From a bacterium (GTDB taxonomy: Bacteria; Patescibacteriota; Saccharimonadia; Saccharimonadales; Saccharimonadaceae): 61,023 nucleotides of DNA. The translations under genes were made by a program, and so were the position numbers. The stretch spans positions 1 to 61,023 of the forward strand of contig JAUIBD010000003.1 of NCBI GenBank assembly GCA_030427525.1, in the 5' to 3' direction. Under the pieces are notes generated by a model. It worked only from the letters and a program-made list of their open reading frames with translations, made no database searches and was not told where the DNA came from. Of the stretch, positions 8,866 to 45,612 are shown piece after piece; the stretch's first letter is position 1; every line of letters starts with the position of its first letter.

Positions 8866-9110
8866 TGAGTGGTGAATTTCCGAGCTCTCCAACACTCGAG
8901 CCGGAGCAATTTATTCCAGAAGGCGACTACGTGATGATAACTGTAGACGGGAAAAGTCTTGTGGGCTATATAACGCCGCATGGAACTGATTCAGAAGGTA
9001 ACATGCTTAGATATAAGTTTACTGTACCAGATTCAAGTGAACAGACGGTGATCCGAGCTGGGCTTATCACAGAAATCGTACACTTACCTGATTTGGACTT
9101 TCAGGAATAG
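8865..9110 (+). CDS. Small hypothetical protein, 81 aa
   Basis: Acidic small protein coupled to the preceding gene by a one-base TAATG overlap. The composition suggests a small beta-barrel-like domain (DYVMITVDGKSLVGYITP...LRYKFTVPD), but no family is recognised. A strong terminator follows its stop. Confidence 0.7.
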   Translation: MSGEFPSSPTLEPEQFIPEGDYVMITVDGKSLVGYITPHGTDSEGNMLRYKFTVPDSSEQTVIRAGLITEIVHLPDLDFQE

Positions 9111-9111
9111 A

Positions 9112-9136
9112 AAAAACGGCCTGAGGGGCCGTTTTT
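9112..9136. terminator. Bidirectional rho-independent terminator
   Basis: Perfect 10-bp stem AAAAACGGCC / GGCCGTTTTT with a 5-nt loop. It has A and T tracts on both sides and lies between two convergent transcription units (the 8865 gene and rpmA), so it can serve both strands. Confidence 0.9.
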
Positions 9137-9154
9137 GACTTGCAATAAGTCTTT

Positions 9155-9427
9155 TTATTCTACGACAACTTGTGTTCGTGGGGCGGTTTTGCCAGTAAAA
9201 CGGCCTTTCTTTACCTTTTTAAAGGCTACTACACCTGCTTTTGCAGCGTGGATAGTGAAGTTACGGCTCATGAACGTACCTGGGCCAGCAATCTTGGTGC
9301 TGCCAGTTTGACGAACCAATACTTCGCCTTCAGAGACTGTTTGACCACCAAAACGCTTCACACCGAGGCGTTGACCTGCGTTGTTATGGACGTTTTTTGA
9401 TGAACCGCCAGCTTTGACGTGTGACAT
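9155..9427 (-). CDS. rpmA: Large ribosomal subunit protein bL27
   Basis: 50S subunit protein near the peptidyl transferase centre. The 90 residues include the diagnostic AGGSSKN N-terminus and the GVKRFGGQTVSEGEVLVRQTG and GPGTFMSRNFTIHA-type body. The Met start directly precedes the functional N-terminus, so there is no cleavable extension of the Firmicutes kind. Unlike most genes here it has a clear Shine-Dalgarno AAGGAG 7 nt before the ATG and a real 5' leader. The usual partner rplU (bL21) is not adjacent; the neighbour upstream on the other strand is an unrelated membrane protein. Confidence 0.95.
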   Translation of the reverse strand: MSHVKAGGSSKNVHNNAGQRLGVKRFGGQTVSEGEVLVRQTGSTKIAGPGTFMSRNFTIHAAKAGVVAFKKVKKGRFTGKTAPRTQVVVE

Positions 9428-9501
9428 ACATTACTCCTTAAAGTTTATATAACAATCTAGTAAATTGTACTAAACTTTCTGACTTTTTGCAAGGGGTAGC
9501 G

Positions 9502-9507
9502 TATAAT
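9502..9507 (+). promoter_or_regulatory. -10 element of the 9519 gene
   Basis: TATAAT lies 11 nt before the ATG at 9519, in the divergent region shared with rpmA. Confidence 0.45.
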
Positions 9508-15251: not shown

Positions 15252-15267
15252 ATTACTCCAAAAATGA

Positions 15268-15304
15268 GTCGAGCCCCACTCCCACGACGGGAGCGGGGCT
15301 CGAC
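15268..15304 (-). terminator. GC-rich hairpin terminator of cassette 1
   Basis: A roughly 16-bp stem, GTCGAGCCCC then CTCCC, pairs with GGGAG then GGGGCTCGAC with one A/C mismatch and an ACGAC loop. Reading the minus strand it is followed by a T-rich run (CATTTTTGG), as expected of a terminator for the minus-strand gene ending at 15323. Confidence 0.75.
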
Positions 15305-15322
15305 CGTCGTGGGGGCGGGGCG

Positions 15323-15682
15323 TCAGGGGAGCGAGCGAAGCACGATGCTCTGCGTCTTCGGGTCGAACTCCATCGTCAAGCCCCGCAAGTCGGTCAGCTC
15401 CTTCTTGACAGCCTTGACAACTGGGAGTTGCAAGATGCATGCGGCGATCGCCTCGTTGGTGATGAAGCCGTCCTTGTTCGGCTTCGCTTTGTCGTGGAGC
15501 TGGTAGTCGCGAGACACGAACTCCATGCTCCAGGTCGACATGATGACCGCGCCATCGAGCTGGCTCGGCTTTCCGCGAAGGGTTGGCGTCGCATCCAGGC
15601 ACTGGAAGGCGAAGGCGAGATTGAGCTGCAGCTCTCTGTCGTGCCTACGACGTGTGAGCCACGGGATCCGAAATCTCTTCAT
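15323..15682 (-). CDS. GC-rich orphan gene (cassette 1), hypothetical protein 119 aa
   Basis: Soluble basic protein with an Arg-rich N-terminus (RRRHDRE) and no recognised domain. Its composition is unlike the surroundings: two 60-base lines counted inside it are 35/60 and 40/60 GC, while neighbouring genes are well below that. It has a Shine-Dalgarno GAGGAG just before the ATG and its own GC-rich terminator, and it opposes the neighbouring genes. This suggests recent acquisition as a self-contained expression cassette, with a counterpart at 56199-56507. Other frames are also open because of the GC content; this one is preferred for its ribosome binding site and terminator placement. Confidence 0.65.
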   Translation of the reverse strand: MKRFRIPWLTRRRHDRELQLNLAFAFQCLDATPTLRGKPSQLDGAVIMSTWSMEFVSRDYQLHDKAKPNKDGFITNEAIAACILQLPVVKAVKKELTDLRGLTMEFDPKTQSIVLRSLP

Positions 15683-15778
15683 GTGGTGCTCCTCTAGGTT
15701 CTCGTCGGCAGCGCGCCGGCTGGGTCGGGTGTGCTACGTTCGATGTAGGTATTAAACCAGAAAAACAGACTAATAAAA

Positions 15779-15789
15779 AGCATAAGCAT
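15779..15789 (+). repeat. AGCATAAGCAT motif
   Basis: Exact 11-base core of the motif at 8165-8175, and in reverse complement at 5266-5276. It lies between cassette 1 and the histidine kinase gene, about 65 bp upstream of the latter. Confidence 0.35.
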
Positions 15790-15855
15790 CACTACTGTTT
15801 TGTATGGTGCTGGTGCTTTTTAGCAGCGCCTCGCAGTGCTAAACTAGAAGTACTG

Positions 15856-42060: not shown

Positions 42061-42379
42061 CGTGTTGCATGCCGGTTACATCCAGGCACATTAAAAATCA
42101 ACAGAAACAGATACCTCGAGAACACCTATCCAGGCAGTATGTGCAGTGGAAAGGGCAACACACGAAACAAGCCTTGTACCTTCCTCTACAAACAACACCT
42201 CCCAAAAAACTCCACCTCACACATAAGTCTCTCAAGCCTTCTGTATGGGTCCGGCGCGTGTTTGCAACTTGCAAGCTTGCCAGATACTACAACCATACAT
42301 AAGGCCGCTTATAAACAAAAACAAACACATACTACAAACACAAAAATAGGCACTATACCGCCTGGTTAGGTGATCTCGA

Positions 42380-42405
42380 GTTCCACACGGTTCGCCGTGT
42401 GGAAC
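42380..42405. promoter_or_regulatory. Perfect 11-bp hairpin with TTCG tetraloop
   Basis: GTTCCACACGG and CCGTGTGGAAC pair without mismatch around a TTCG loop, 19 bp before the rsmH -10. No T-run follows on either strand, so it is not a standard terminator. It could be an RNA processing or stability element at the end of the mraZ transcript. Confidence 0.6.
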
Positions 42406-42424
42406 CATCTCGGCTTTAGCATGC

Positions 42425-42430
42425 TATAGT
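42425..42430 (+). promoter_or_regulatory. -10 element of rsmH, leaderless type
   Basis: TATAGT ends 7 nt before the ATG at 42438; a second in-frame ATG at 42435 would be only 4 nt away. Confidence 0.55.
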
Positions 42431-42437
42431 TGAGATG

Positions 42438-43331
42438 ATGAGTGTTAAAGAACATCCACCACATTTACATGTTCCTGTTTTATTAGGTGCAAGCGTTGAT
42501 GCAATGCAGCCCAAGAAGGGAGAGAACTATCTTGACCTGACGGCGGGCTACGGAGGTCATGCGCAAGCATTTCTAGATAAAACTGAAAACTTTTCTGATT
42601 CCATCTTGGTCGATCGCGATGTAAATGCGATAACTGAACTAGATGAATTCAAGCGTAAAGGATCGAGGGTGCTTCATACAGATTTTGTTACTGCTGCAAA
42701 GCAGTTAACGGAGGGAAATGAGCACTTTGATCTTGTACTTGTGGATTTAGGGGTGTCGTCGCCACAGCTCGATAGAGCAGAGCGAGGGTTCTCGTTTCAA
42801 AACGATGGTCCGCTAGATATGCGCATGGACACTTCGCAAGATGTGACTGCTGCGATGATAGTGAACCGAGCCTCAGAAGCCGAATTAGTGAGAATGTTCA
42901 CAGAATACGGTGAAGAGAAGCTAGGGTTCGCCAGGAGAATCGCCAAGGCGATTGTTCGAGGCCGACCATTCGAAACAACAAAACAACTCGCAGATGTAAT
43001 ACTGAGCGAACACCGTGGAAAATGGAGTCGAATCCATCCAGCCACGCGTGCATTTCAGGCCCTGAGGATTGTCGTAAATGACGAACTTGGCCAGATCAAG
43101 GAACTTCTACCGTACTTGCCAGAGTTATTGAATAAGGGTGGCAGGGTAGGCGTTATCAGTTTTCACAGCTTGGAGGATCGTTTAGTCAAACGATTTCTTA
43201 AAGAACACGCAGAAGCTGGTTACGAAGCAGACCTTGAACTTGTGACCAAAAAGGCAATCGATGGAGCTACTTATGATGTTCACAATCCGCGAAGTCGTAG
43301 CGCTAAGTTACGCGTCGCAGTGAAAAAATAA
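42438..43331 (+). CDS. rsmH: 16S rRNA m4C1402 methyltransferase
   Basis: Also called MraW; methylates N4 of C1402 in the ribosomal P site. The 297 residues show the N-terminal HVPVLLGASVDAM, SAM motif I in YLDLTAGYGGHAQAFL, the DLGVSSPQLDRAERGFSF signature and the late GVISFHSLEDRLVKRF. All are characteristic. It sits in its usual place after mraZ, but with its own leaderless-type promoter and separated by a long spacer. Confidence 0.95.
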   Translation: MSVKEHPPHLHVPVLLGASVDAMQPKKGENYLDLTAGYGGHAQAFLDKTENFSDSILVDRDVNAITELDEFKRKGSRVLHTDFVTAAKQLTEGNEHFDLVLVDLGVSSPQLDRAERGFSFQNDGPLDMRMDTSQDVTAAMIVNRASEAELVRMFTEYGEEKLGFARRIAKAIVRGRPFETTKQLADVILSEHRGKWSRIHPATRAFQALRIVVNDELGQIKELLPYLPELLNKGGRVGVISFHSLEDRLVKRFLKEHAEAGYEADLELVTKKAIDGATYDVHNPRSRSAKLRVAVKK

Positions 43332-43366
43332 AACAAAAACATACAGGAAGGGGGCATACAAACACT

Positions 43367-43432
43367 ATGCCAATCCACATTCCAGTGCAGGACCGCTCCG
43401 AGGACGTAAAAGTCGTCGTACGGTTCAAATAA
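43367..43432 (+). CDS. Candidate 21-codon leader peptide before ftsL
   Basis: An ATG-to-TAA frame of 21 codons beginning MPIHIPVQDR and ending VVVRFK. A purine-rich AGGAAGGGGG lies about 11-14 nt before the ATG, farther than usual. The stop codon abuts a region with two competing RNA helices (43433-43486), the layout of a translation-sensing attenuator. It may instead be chance. Confidence 0.3.
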   Translation: MPIHIPVQDRSEDVKVVVRFK

Positions 43433-43486
43433 CCTGATCCGCGGTTCAGGGCGCTTAATGTAACAGTTAAGCGCCTGCCAGGATCA
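43433..43486 (+). promoter_or_regulatory. Structured leader with competing helices before ftsL
   Basis: An outer helix TGATCC (43435-43440) with GGATCA (43481-43486) encloses a perfect 9-bp hairpin GGCGCTTAA (43450-43458) with TTAAGCGCC (43467-43475). The segment CCTGA (43433-43437) can instead pair with TCAGG (43446-43450), which would break the outer helix. No T-run follows, so control would be of translation or processing. Confidence 0.5.
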
Positions 43487-43513
43487 CCTAAAAATAAATA
43501 CAAACACCACCAC

Positions 43514-43864
43514 ATGTCCCAATATTATTCCACCACCACCTACAATCGGCGCAGGCAAAATTGGAATCGCAACCAAAACACCGTTGCGTACGTGTCGAAT
43601 ATCAAACTTGGCCCTGTTACACATACAGTGCTAGTTGCACTGATGATAACCGTGCTTGGTTTGATTTACTTGACACAAGCCACTAAAGCCACGGCATACG
43701 ACTATCAAGCCCAAAAGGTAGATACACAGATTGCCGAGCTAACCAGCGAAAAAACTGACCTCGAGGTCGAAAACGCTCGCTTGACTGCGCTCAACACAGT
43801 ACAAAACAGTAGTGTAGCGCGTGCAATGACGAACCCGAAAGAGTCGAGTTTCGTTAACAACTAA
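43514..43864 (+). CDS. ftsL: FtsL-like septum protein
   Basis: A 116-residue bitopic protein with a basic cytoplasmic tail, one membrane segment (HTVLVALMITVLGLIYL) and an extracellular coiled coil (QKVDTQIAELTSEKTDLEVENARLTALN, read as heptads). Size, topology and position between rsmH and ftsI identify it as FtsL, although the sequence itself is poorly conserved. The leader is A/C-rich with no Shine-Dalgarno. It probably forms the FtsQLW-I division complex with the downstream products; no separate ftsB was seen. Confidence 0.85.
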   Translation: MSQYYSTTTYNRRRQNWNRNQNTVAYVSNIKLGPVTHTVLVALMITVLGLIYLTQATKATAYDYQAQKVDTQIAELTSEKTDLEVENARLTALNTVQNSSVARAMTNPKESSFVNN

Positions 43865-43878
43865 CCATCACAACCATC

Positions 43879-45612
43879 ATGCTGCCACAGTTTCGTTCAA
43901 ATAGTCGAATTCGTTTGCTTGCCATTTTATGCCTGGCTATTATGGCTGTTTTTGTGATGCGGCTGTTTTATTTGCAAGTTATTGAACATGGTAGATATAG
44001 CACATTGGCTGATAATGAACAGATAAAACGTCTTACTATTCCAGCACAAAGAGGCGAAATATATATGATGGATAACGGCAATCCAGTGAAAGTGGTACTG
44101 AATAACACGGTATATACTGTGTTTGTTGACCCGCAATTTATTGACGACAAGCAGGCGGTAGTCAAAGCAATTCGCGAAATCGCAGGGGGTAATACGGTTG
44201 AAAATTTTGCAAAGTTGGTAGACCGAACAGATACCCGTTACCAGATAGTTGCACGCAATGTTTCGCGCAAGCAGGCCGAATTAATGAAAGAACGTAACTT
44301 GAAGGGAATAGGGTTTCAGGCGGTATCTGAGCGAGTGTATCCAGAAGCGAAGCTGGGTGGACAGGTGCTTGGTTTTGTTAATTACGAAGGTAAAGGTCAG
44401 TATGGTATAGAAGAAGAGTTCAATGTAGCGCTTCAGGGTACCGATGGTATGTTGCAATCCGTGACAGATGTCGGAAATGTACCACTAACCATTGGCGACC
44501 ATAATGTCGATGTTCCAGCAAAGAATGGTAAAGATATTGTGTTGACGATAGATCGCAATGTACAAGCGTTTACCGAAAGAGCATTGCGGAACGGTTTACG
44601 AAAGCTTGGCGCACCCTACGGTAGTGTACTAGTGATGGATCCACAAAATGGGAAGGTACTGGCAATGGCAAATTTGCCAGATTACAACCCGGGCAAATAC
44701 TATACTGTGCAGGATGCGCGTGCATTTAATAACGATATTATTTCTGACCCATATGAACCAGGTTCGGTCATAAAAACCTTTACCGTGGCAACGGGTATTA
44801 ACACTGGTACGATTACGCCGCAATCTACCTACACGAATACTGACTACATTGACGTGGAAGACCGGACGATTACAAACGCAACCAAAGGACAAACGGGCAC
44901 GATTACCTTTGACCATGCCTATACGTGGTCACTAAACACAGGAATGGTGACGATTGCACAGCGCCTCGGCGGCGGTTCCATAAATAGCAAGGCACGTACA
45001 GTGATGTATGACTATTTTCACGATCGATTCCGCCTGGGTGAGATGACGGGCATACAGCTAGCTGGAGAAGTGCAAGGTATCATTGATCAGCCAAATACAG
45101 GGAACGGTGACGCGGTGCGGTACTCAAATATGTCATTCGGACAAGGCATGGACCCAACTATGTTGCAGGTGGGTGCAGCGTTCTCATCGGTTGTAAACGG
45201 CGGTACCTACTACCACCCAACCATCATAGAGGGTACTGTAGATGCCGATGGCAAGCTGGTGCCTGCAAAGCAAAAAACACCCGATACAAACGTGGTTAGT
45301 GAGTCGACTTCTGAGCAGGTTCGAAATATGGCAGTACGAGCTCGTAAAGCCTTCTATGCAGGAAGTGATAAACCCGGCTTTACGGTCGGTGGCAAAACCG
45401 GAACTTCGCAAGCTATTGTTAATGGAGAGTATACGTTTGATGAAACAACCGGTACCTACATAGGCTTCGGTGGCGATAGCAAGCCTCGATATGTCATAAT
45501 GGTACGTGTGTCGGGCCCAGGATTAGCAATAGGCGGCCAAGATGTGATCCCCATTTTTACCGACATCTCTAACTGGATGATTGATTACCAAAAACTTGAA
45601 CCGAAAGGCTAG
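43879..45612 (+). CDS. ftsI: Septal transpeptidase FtsI (class B penicillin-binding protein)
   Basis: Cross-links septal peptidoglycan with FtsW. The 577 residues show a short N-terminal membrane anchor, a pedestal domain, and the transpeptidase domain with SxxK in EPGSVIKTFTVATG, SxN in YTWSLNTGMV and KTG in VGGKTGTSQAI. All three catalytic motifs are intact. No PASTA repeats are seen. The start (ATG at 43879) lies 14 nt after the ftsL stop in an A/C-rich spacer without Shine-Dalgarno. Confidence 0.95.
   Translation: MLPQFRSNSRIRLLAILCLAIMAVFVMRLFYLQVIEHGRYSTLADNEQIKRLTIPAQRGEIYMMDNGNPVKVVLNNTVYTVFVDPQFIDDKQAVVKAIREIAGGNTVENFAKLVDRTDTRYQIVARNVSRKQAELMKERNLKGIGFQAVSERVYPEAKLGGQVLGFVNYEGKGQYGIEEEFNVALQGTDGMLQSVTDVGNVPLTIGDHNVDVPAKNGKDIVLTIDRNVQAFTERALRNGLRKLGAPYGSVLVMDPQNGKVLAMANLPDYNPGKYYTVQDARAFNNDIISDPYEPGSVIKTFTVATGINTGTITPQSTYTNTDYIDVEDRTITNATKGQTGTITFDHAYTWSLNTGMVTIAQRLGGGSINSKARTVMYDYFHDRFRLGEMTGIQLAGEVQGIIDQPNTGNGDAVRYSNMSFGQGMDPTMLQVGAAFSSVVNGGTYYHPTIIEGTVDADGKLVPAKQKTPDTNVVSESTSEQVRNMAVRARKAFYAGSDKPGFTVGGKTGTSQAIVNGEYTFDETTGTYIGFGGDSKPRYVIMVRVSGPGLAIGGQDVIPIFTDISNWMIDYQKLEPKG

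Follow-up and report, generated by a model that had tools for sequence, protein, structure and literature searches.

We found that the spacer between rsmH and ftsL, in the division cluster of the Saccharibacteria, carries a small open reading frame that, judged by its conservation, is best explained as an unannotated microprotein gene of the rsmH-ftsL operon, present Saccharibacteria-wide among the genomes examined. A stable RNA hairpin follows the frame, and our preferred reading, to which we give a probability of about 0.52, is that a microprotein gene is combined here with an intercistronic hairpin, which determines how strongly the operon's two halves are expressed relative to each other. 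The stretch of DNA analysed (the window) is a 61-kb contig belonging to a 0.996-Mb genome, in which mraZ, rsmH, the small frame, the hairpin, ftsL and ftsI follow one another, with more division and peptidoglycan genes downstream. The features of the locus, in window coordinates, are as follows:

42435..43331, + strand: rsmH (mraW), 16S rRNA methyltransferase, the upstream gene (Pfam PF01795, E 8e-92)
43345..43354, + strand: Shine-Dalgarno-like AGGAAGGGGG of the small frame, read from the sequence
43367..43432, + strand: predicted microprotein gene MPIHIPVQDRSEDVKVVVRFK, 21 codons and TAA (224/224 class loci; dN/dS about 0.19)
43435..43486, + strand: putative intercistronic hairpin (fold z -5.4; 97% of 178 spacers at z < -2; compensatory changes)
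43433..43450, + strand: short alternative helix CCTGA/TCAGG, as proposed earlier (not conserved in the alignment)
43487..43513, + strand: ftsL leader, A-rich, unstructured and without Shine-Dalgarno motif (composition across loci, pairing of the ftsL start)
43514..43864, + strand: ftsL-like gene (PF19579 FtsL_2 matched weakly at E 0.0023, short of the cut-off for this family; precedes the PBP/ftsI gene)
43879..45612, + strand: ftsI-like penicillin-binding protein (PF00905, E 2e-53)

The frame of the window thus runs from an ATG at 43367 to a TAA at 43430-43432, with AGGAAGGGGG 12 nt ahead of the ATG and 81 nt between the stop and the ATG of ftsL. A search of viral contigs with FtsL found no relative.

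To determine how widespread the frame is, we took rsmH-downstream spacers from the window's family, from about 35 other families in its order and from two more elsewhere in the class. The position behind rsmH served as a guide, since a profile of only 20 residues has little power. The frame was recognisable downstream of rsmH in all 224 loci examined in the class Saccharimonadia (186 of them with distinct sequences, from about 40 families), 221 of them recognised by the profile and three added by eye. The statistics below took in 183 of the 186 distinct loci; these loci are related, and the counts are thus not independent. The lowest real locus scored 10.7 bits, compared with 6.9 bits for the best of 888 decoys, which were shuffled or reverse-strand regions; of the 183 scored peptides, 150 had been absent from profile building, and all of these scored higher than the decoys. 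Through the window's family, the profile located the frame between rsmH and ftsL; a DNA search detected it in 8 of 14 genomes of the same genus, with similarity ending close to its stop codon. Frame-bearing genomes of the GTDB-derived collection are titled mostly Candidatus Saccharibacteria or Saccharimonadia, and a few 'bacterium', 'Patescibacteria group bacterium' or 'Chloroflexi bacterium'. Neither the frame nor a profile match was found at 15 rsmH loci from other Patescibacteria classes, and a whole-genome profile scan of 287 genomes of the phylum returned just weak partial matches outside the class (E above 0.005). Nor was a report of a small frame at this position found in the open-access literature.

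Every copy of the frame found lies beside rsmH and ftsL, which leaves no natural experiment that would separate its cis from its trans roles. Its overlap with rsmH in 14 loci ties it to that gene. At one locus (L181, genome G056), rsmH lacks its usual stop and extends through the entire small frame in another frame, a complete overlap.

The encoded peptides are 19-28 residues long, most commonly 21 or 19, and start with ATG (180/183) or GTG (3/183). A Shine-Dalgarno-like motif precedes the frame at all 183 distinct loci, compared with 31% of the genes of the window. As to stop codons, TAA ends the frame at 124 and TAG at 59 of the 183 loci, and TGA, which ends about 9% of window genes, at none. 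The frame is under purifying selection, with a dN/dS of about 0.19 and a pN/pS of 0.24 (bootstrap 95% 0.19-0.29; 38 independent pairs), while the same test on two wrong frames gave 1.3 and 2.5, both > 1. Conserved residues alternate (I5 and V7; V16 and V18) on the two sides of a variable polar turn, i.e. two alternating-hydrophobic stretches, x-I-x-V and then K-V-x-V-R-x, flank the turn, a pattern that suggests a beta-hairpin fold. At the conserved Val/Ile sites nearly all synonymous codons are in use, which places the constraint on the residues rather than on the choice of codon. The last residue varies; together with the free use of codons, this leaves no sign of a codon sensor or of a C-terminal arrest motif, and likewise neither a run of regulatory codons nor fixed C-terminal residues appeared in residue composition and codon tables. 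Collectively, selection on the frame as protein makes a tiny working protein more likely than only a regulatory leader.

Searches for related proteins gave no match in Pfam or NCBIfam, and only E about 1 against PDB sequences. In other families the peptide takes the form MPIQVKNLSRAYKVKVRVV, and its mean net charge is +4.7 there vs +1.8 in the window's family. The basic character in most families and the link to rsmH point weakly to RNA or the ribosome as the partner of the peptide. The likeness of SRAxKVxVR in the peptide to SRSAKLRVA at the RsmH C-terminus is faint (2-4 bits, the range of decoys) and is not claimed as a relationship. A bolder proposal, which we regard as rather unlikely, is that all Saccharibacteria make from their division operon a lineage-defining, trans-acting beta-hairpin microprotein of ~20 residues, basic in most families. 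Together with RsmH or FtsL, this protein would work on the ribosome or the divisome, and its own translation would feed back on ftsL via the hairpin at the stop codon.

The preliminary description of this DNA had noted a 21-codon frame between rsmH and ftsL that ends directly at a structured RNA, and both frame and hairpin proved to recur class-wide. Folding of 43333-43513 gives -58.3 kcal/mol (z = -5.4), a stability that none of 200 shuffles equalled. Its minimum-energy structure contains the long helix that had been described, TGATCC (43435-43440)/GGATCA (43481-43486) around a perfect GGCGCTTAA/TTAAGCGCC hairpin, with the inner stem 43449-43459/43466-43476 inside this outer helix. Among the 29 window spacers of at least 30 nt, only rsmH-ftsL (z -6.0) and mraZ-rsmH (z -6.6) were strongly structured. 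Across the class, 97% of 178 rsmH-ftsL spacers lie at z < -2 (median z -5.1). In a clade with alignable stems, 7 of 12 pairs have changed on both sides, a score reached by 0 of 500 shuffles; the window's close relatives keep the inner stem with four such pairs, and the outer helix less well. Spacer conservation and compensatory changes, whose lack had been named beforehand as speaking against the device, were therefore both found, the first in the class-wide frame and the second in the covarying hairpin. Covariance models of Rfam gave no match at the gathering threshold in the window and none up to E 1 around the spacer.

Is the hairpin connected with the frame at all? Its sequence turns over freely while the stability of the stem is kept, as might be expected of a binding or processing site (for an RNase III-type nuclease, an RNA-binding protein or an sRNA) that merely shares the spacer. 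We consider this improbable: the first pair of the hairpin lies a median of 6 nt past the stop of the frame and never far from it (5th-95th percentile 0-17 nt), as if the hairpin were linked to translation or to the 3′ end of the frame.

A leader frame and then a stable hairpin, both ahead of an essential gene, could also be taken as a ribosome-mediated transcription attenuator, in which the hairpin would terminate the rsmH mRNA under control of frame translation. A T-run follows the hairpin in only 1.7% of the 178 spacers, the tail being A-rich instead, and the hairpin of the window is not among the terminator-like sites of the + strand, so that this mechanism is very improbable. For the same reasons the hairpin was rejected as an intrinsic terminator. 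By these sequence features (stable, covarying, without U-tract and between co-directional genes) it would qualify as an intercistronic protective hairpin, and its most likely effect would be on mRNA stability or on the initiation of ftsL.

The main rival to our reading, which we hold to be possible with a minority chance, is a leader peptide acting in cis, the idea of the preliminary description and similar to mgtQ ahead of mgtB in Salmonella. The hairpin would be opened or closed as the frame is translated, or by ribosomes that terminate at its stop codon, and ftsL translation or decay would be governed in this way. With its base a median of 6 nt past the stop, the hairpin is within reach of a terminating ribosome, frame and hairpin are conserved jointly through the class, and an intergenic small frame with alternative stems provides a precedent (PMC8092293). 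However, the start of ftsL (called by rule across the family) is about 80% unpaired, i.e. not sequestered by the hairpin. The last pair of the hairpin is a median of 32 nt from ftsL, this tail is 63% A, and 13% of loci have a Shine-Dalgarno-like motif ahead of ftsL. Pairing of the hairpin region directed to the frame or its Shine-Dalgarno motif has a median of about 13%, and compared with synonymous recodings the frame showed no excess of RNA structure (mean z -0.09). The frame of the window itself folds somewhat better than its own synonymous recodings (z -2.2), so that it may have a local RNA role in this one genome. Also against a cis-acting leader, the peptide is conserved at the protein level along its length while synonymous codons are free, and the alternative helix is not conserved. 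This short helix, CCTGA (43433-43437)/TCAGG (43446-43450), had been proposed as the alternative to the long one; it can form in the window, but among the aligned relatives only the close relative G012 retains part of it, and the others lack it. Of the peptide-sensing attenuator proposed on this basis, the frame and the hairpin have thus stood as conserved elements, whereas the missing U-tract, the unconserved alternative helix, the open ftsL start and the varying codons speak against the sensing device. In character the frame is closer to a protein-coding gene than to a peptide sensor, and its translation may still regulate ftsL.

Finally, programmed readthrough or frameshifting at the hairpin could create a peptide-FtsL fusion, since in the window the 27 codons from the frame stop to ftsL are open and in frame. 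Over all loci, spacer lengths are spread over the three values modulo 3 (71/56/52 loci) and 138 of 179 spacers contain in-frame stops, which refutes this as a general mechanism and leaves it next to no chance as an explanation.

We therefore return to the preferred reading, in which a microprotein gene and an intercistronic hairpin go together. The alignments and predicted folds show protein-level selection, a class-wide position, a Shine-Dalgarno site, a covarying hairpin, no U-tract and an open ftsL start; it was the protein-level selection, the frame's own Shine-Dalgarno motif everywhere, the overlaps with rsmH and the precedent of E. coli hairpins that led us to commit to this reading. Translation of the microprotein would probably start from the frame's own Shine-Dalgarno motif within the rsmH-ftsL mRNA. 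The peptide would probably act in trans, with RNA, the ribosome or the product of a neighbouring gene as possible targets. The hairpin would separate the rsmH-microprotein segment from the A-rich ftsL start, which lacks a Shine-Dalgarno motif, and would most likely protect or process the mRNA or insulate ftsL initiation, with the consequence that the two segments may be expressed at different levels. The constant closeness of the hairpin to the stop codon is also expected of a translation-coupled regulator, and counts against our proposal.

The mraZ-rsmH spacer (window about 42115-42380) harbours a second conserved structured RNA, a candidate non-coding RNA or long leader. Its long closing helix is kept with compensatory changes across Saccharibacteria, and its nearly invariant single-stranded core, CACCUCCC(A)nCUCCACCUCACACAUAAGUCUCUCAA, resembles a repeated anti-Shine-Dalgarno sequence. 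The exact core pattern occurs in 8 of 13 genomes of the order and in 0 of the 179 other phylum genomes searched. The RNA matched no Rfam family; RNase P is encoded elsewhere in the genome, and a search for 6S RNA did not find it. Many relatives have a TATAAT-like box no more than about 10 nt from the ATG of rsmH (window about 42421-42434), and similar boxes stand ahead of several other window genes, which suggests leaderless mRNAs; Shine-Dalgarno sites are commoner at operon-internal genes. Two long spacers, 15252-15855 (z -3.8) and 8866-9506 (z -2.6), also fold better than shuffles.

Saccharibacteria live as ultrasmall episymbionts, and their genomes are reduced. A gene fixed in position within the division cluster of every genome examined, and matched by none of the protein-family models searched, is a strong candidate for a role specific to this lineage and important to it, in division or in ribosome maturation. 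The locus is likewise a strong candidate for a fixed point of control between rsmH and ftsL. Some species of the group are in culture and can be transformed (PMC10633639), so that the microprotein is directly testable.

Several known systems resemble parts of this arrangement. Bacterial microproteins in conserved operons, which are under about 30 residues, have their own Shine-Dalgarno site, evolve under purifying selection and are missed by annotation models, share all these properties with the small frame; in contrast to them, it has no Pfam, NCBIfam or PDB match and is limited to Saccharimonadia in our searches. Leader peptides with attenuators that respond to amino acids or antibiotics (trpL, ermBL etc.) likewise consist of a short frame and then a hairpin, but the locus here has neither a terminator nor a sequestering stem, and its peptide shows neither a run of regulatory codons nor a conserved C-terminal arrest motif. 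In Salmonella, mgtQ is an intergenic small frame of mgtC-mgtB that works through aborted translation, with stems that overlap the frame and occlude the mgtB ribosome-binding site (PMC8092293). Like the frame described here, mgtQ, which is translated, is short and lies in an intergenic spacer beside RNA stems ahead of an operon gene; unlike in mgtQ, the stems here lie behind the frame, ftsL has no Shine-Dalgarno motif and an open start, and the peptide is conserved as protein. In E. coli, stable hairpins that sit between cistrons and lack a U-tract shield the portion of an operon mRNA upstream of them (Dar and Sorek, 2018; PMC5927463). Hairpins of the malE-malF type share with ours stability, a place between genes of the same operon just past the stop of the upstream gene, and the lack of a U-tract; the Saccharibacteria hairpin differs in that its position is conserved through a whole class, always with the putative microprotein gene ahead of it.
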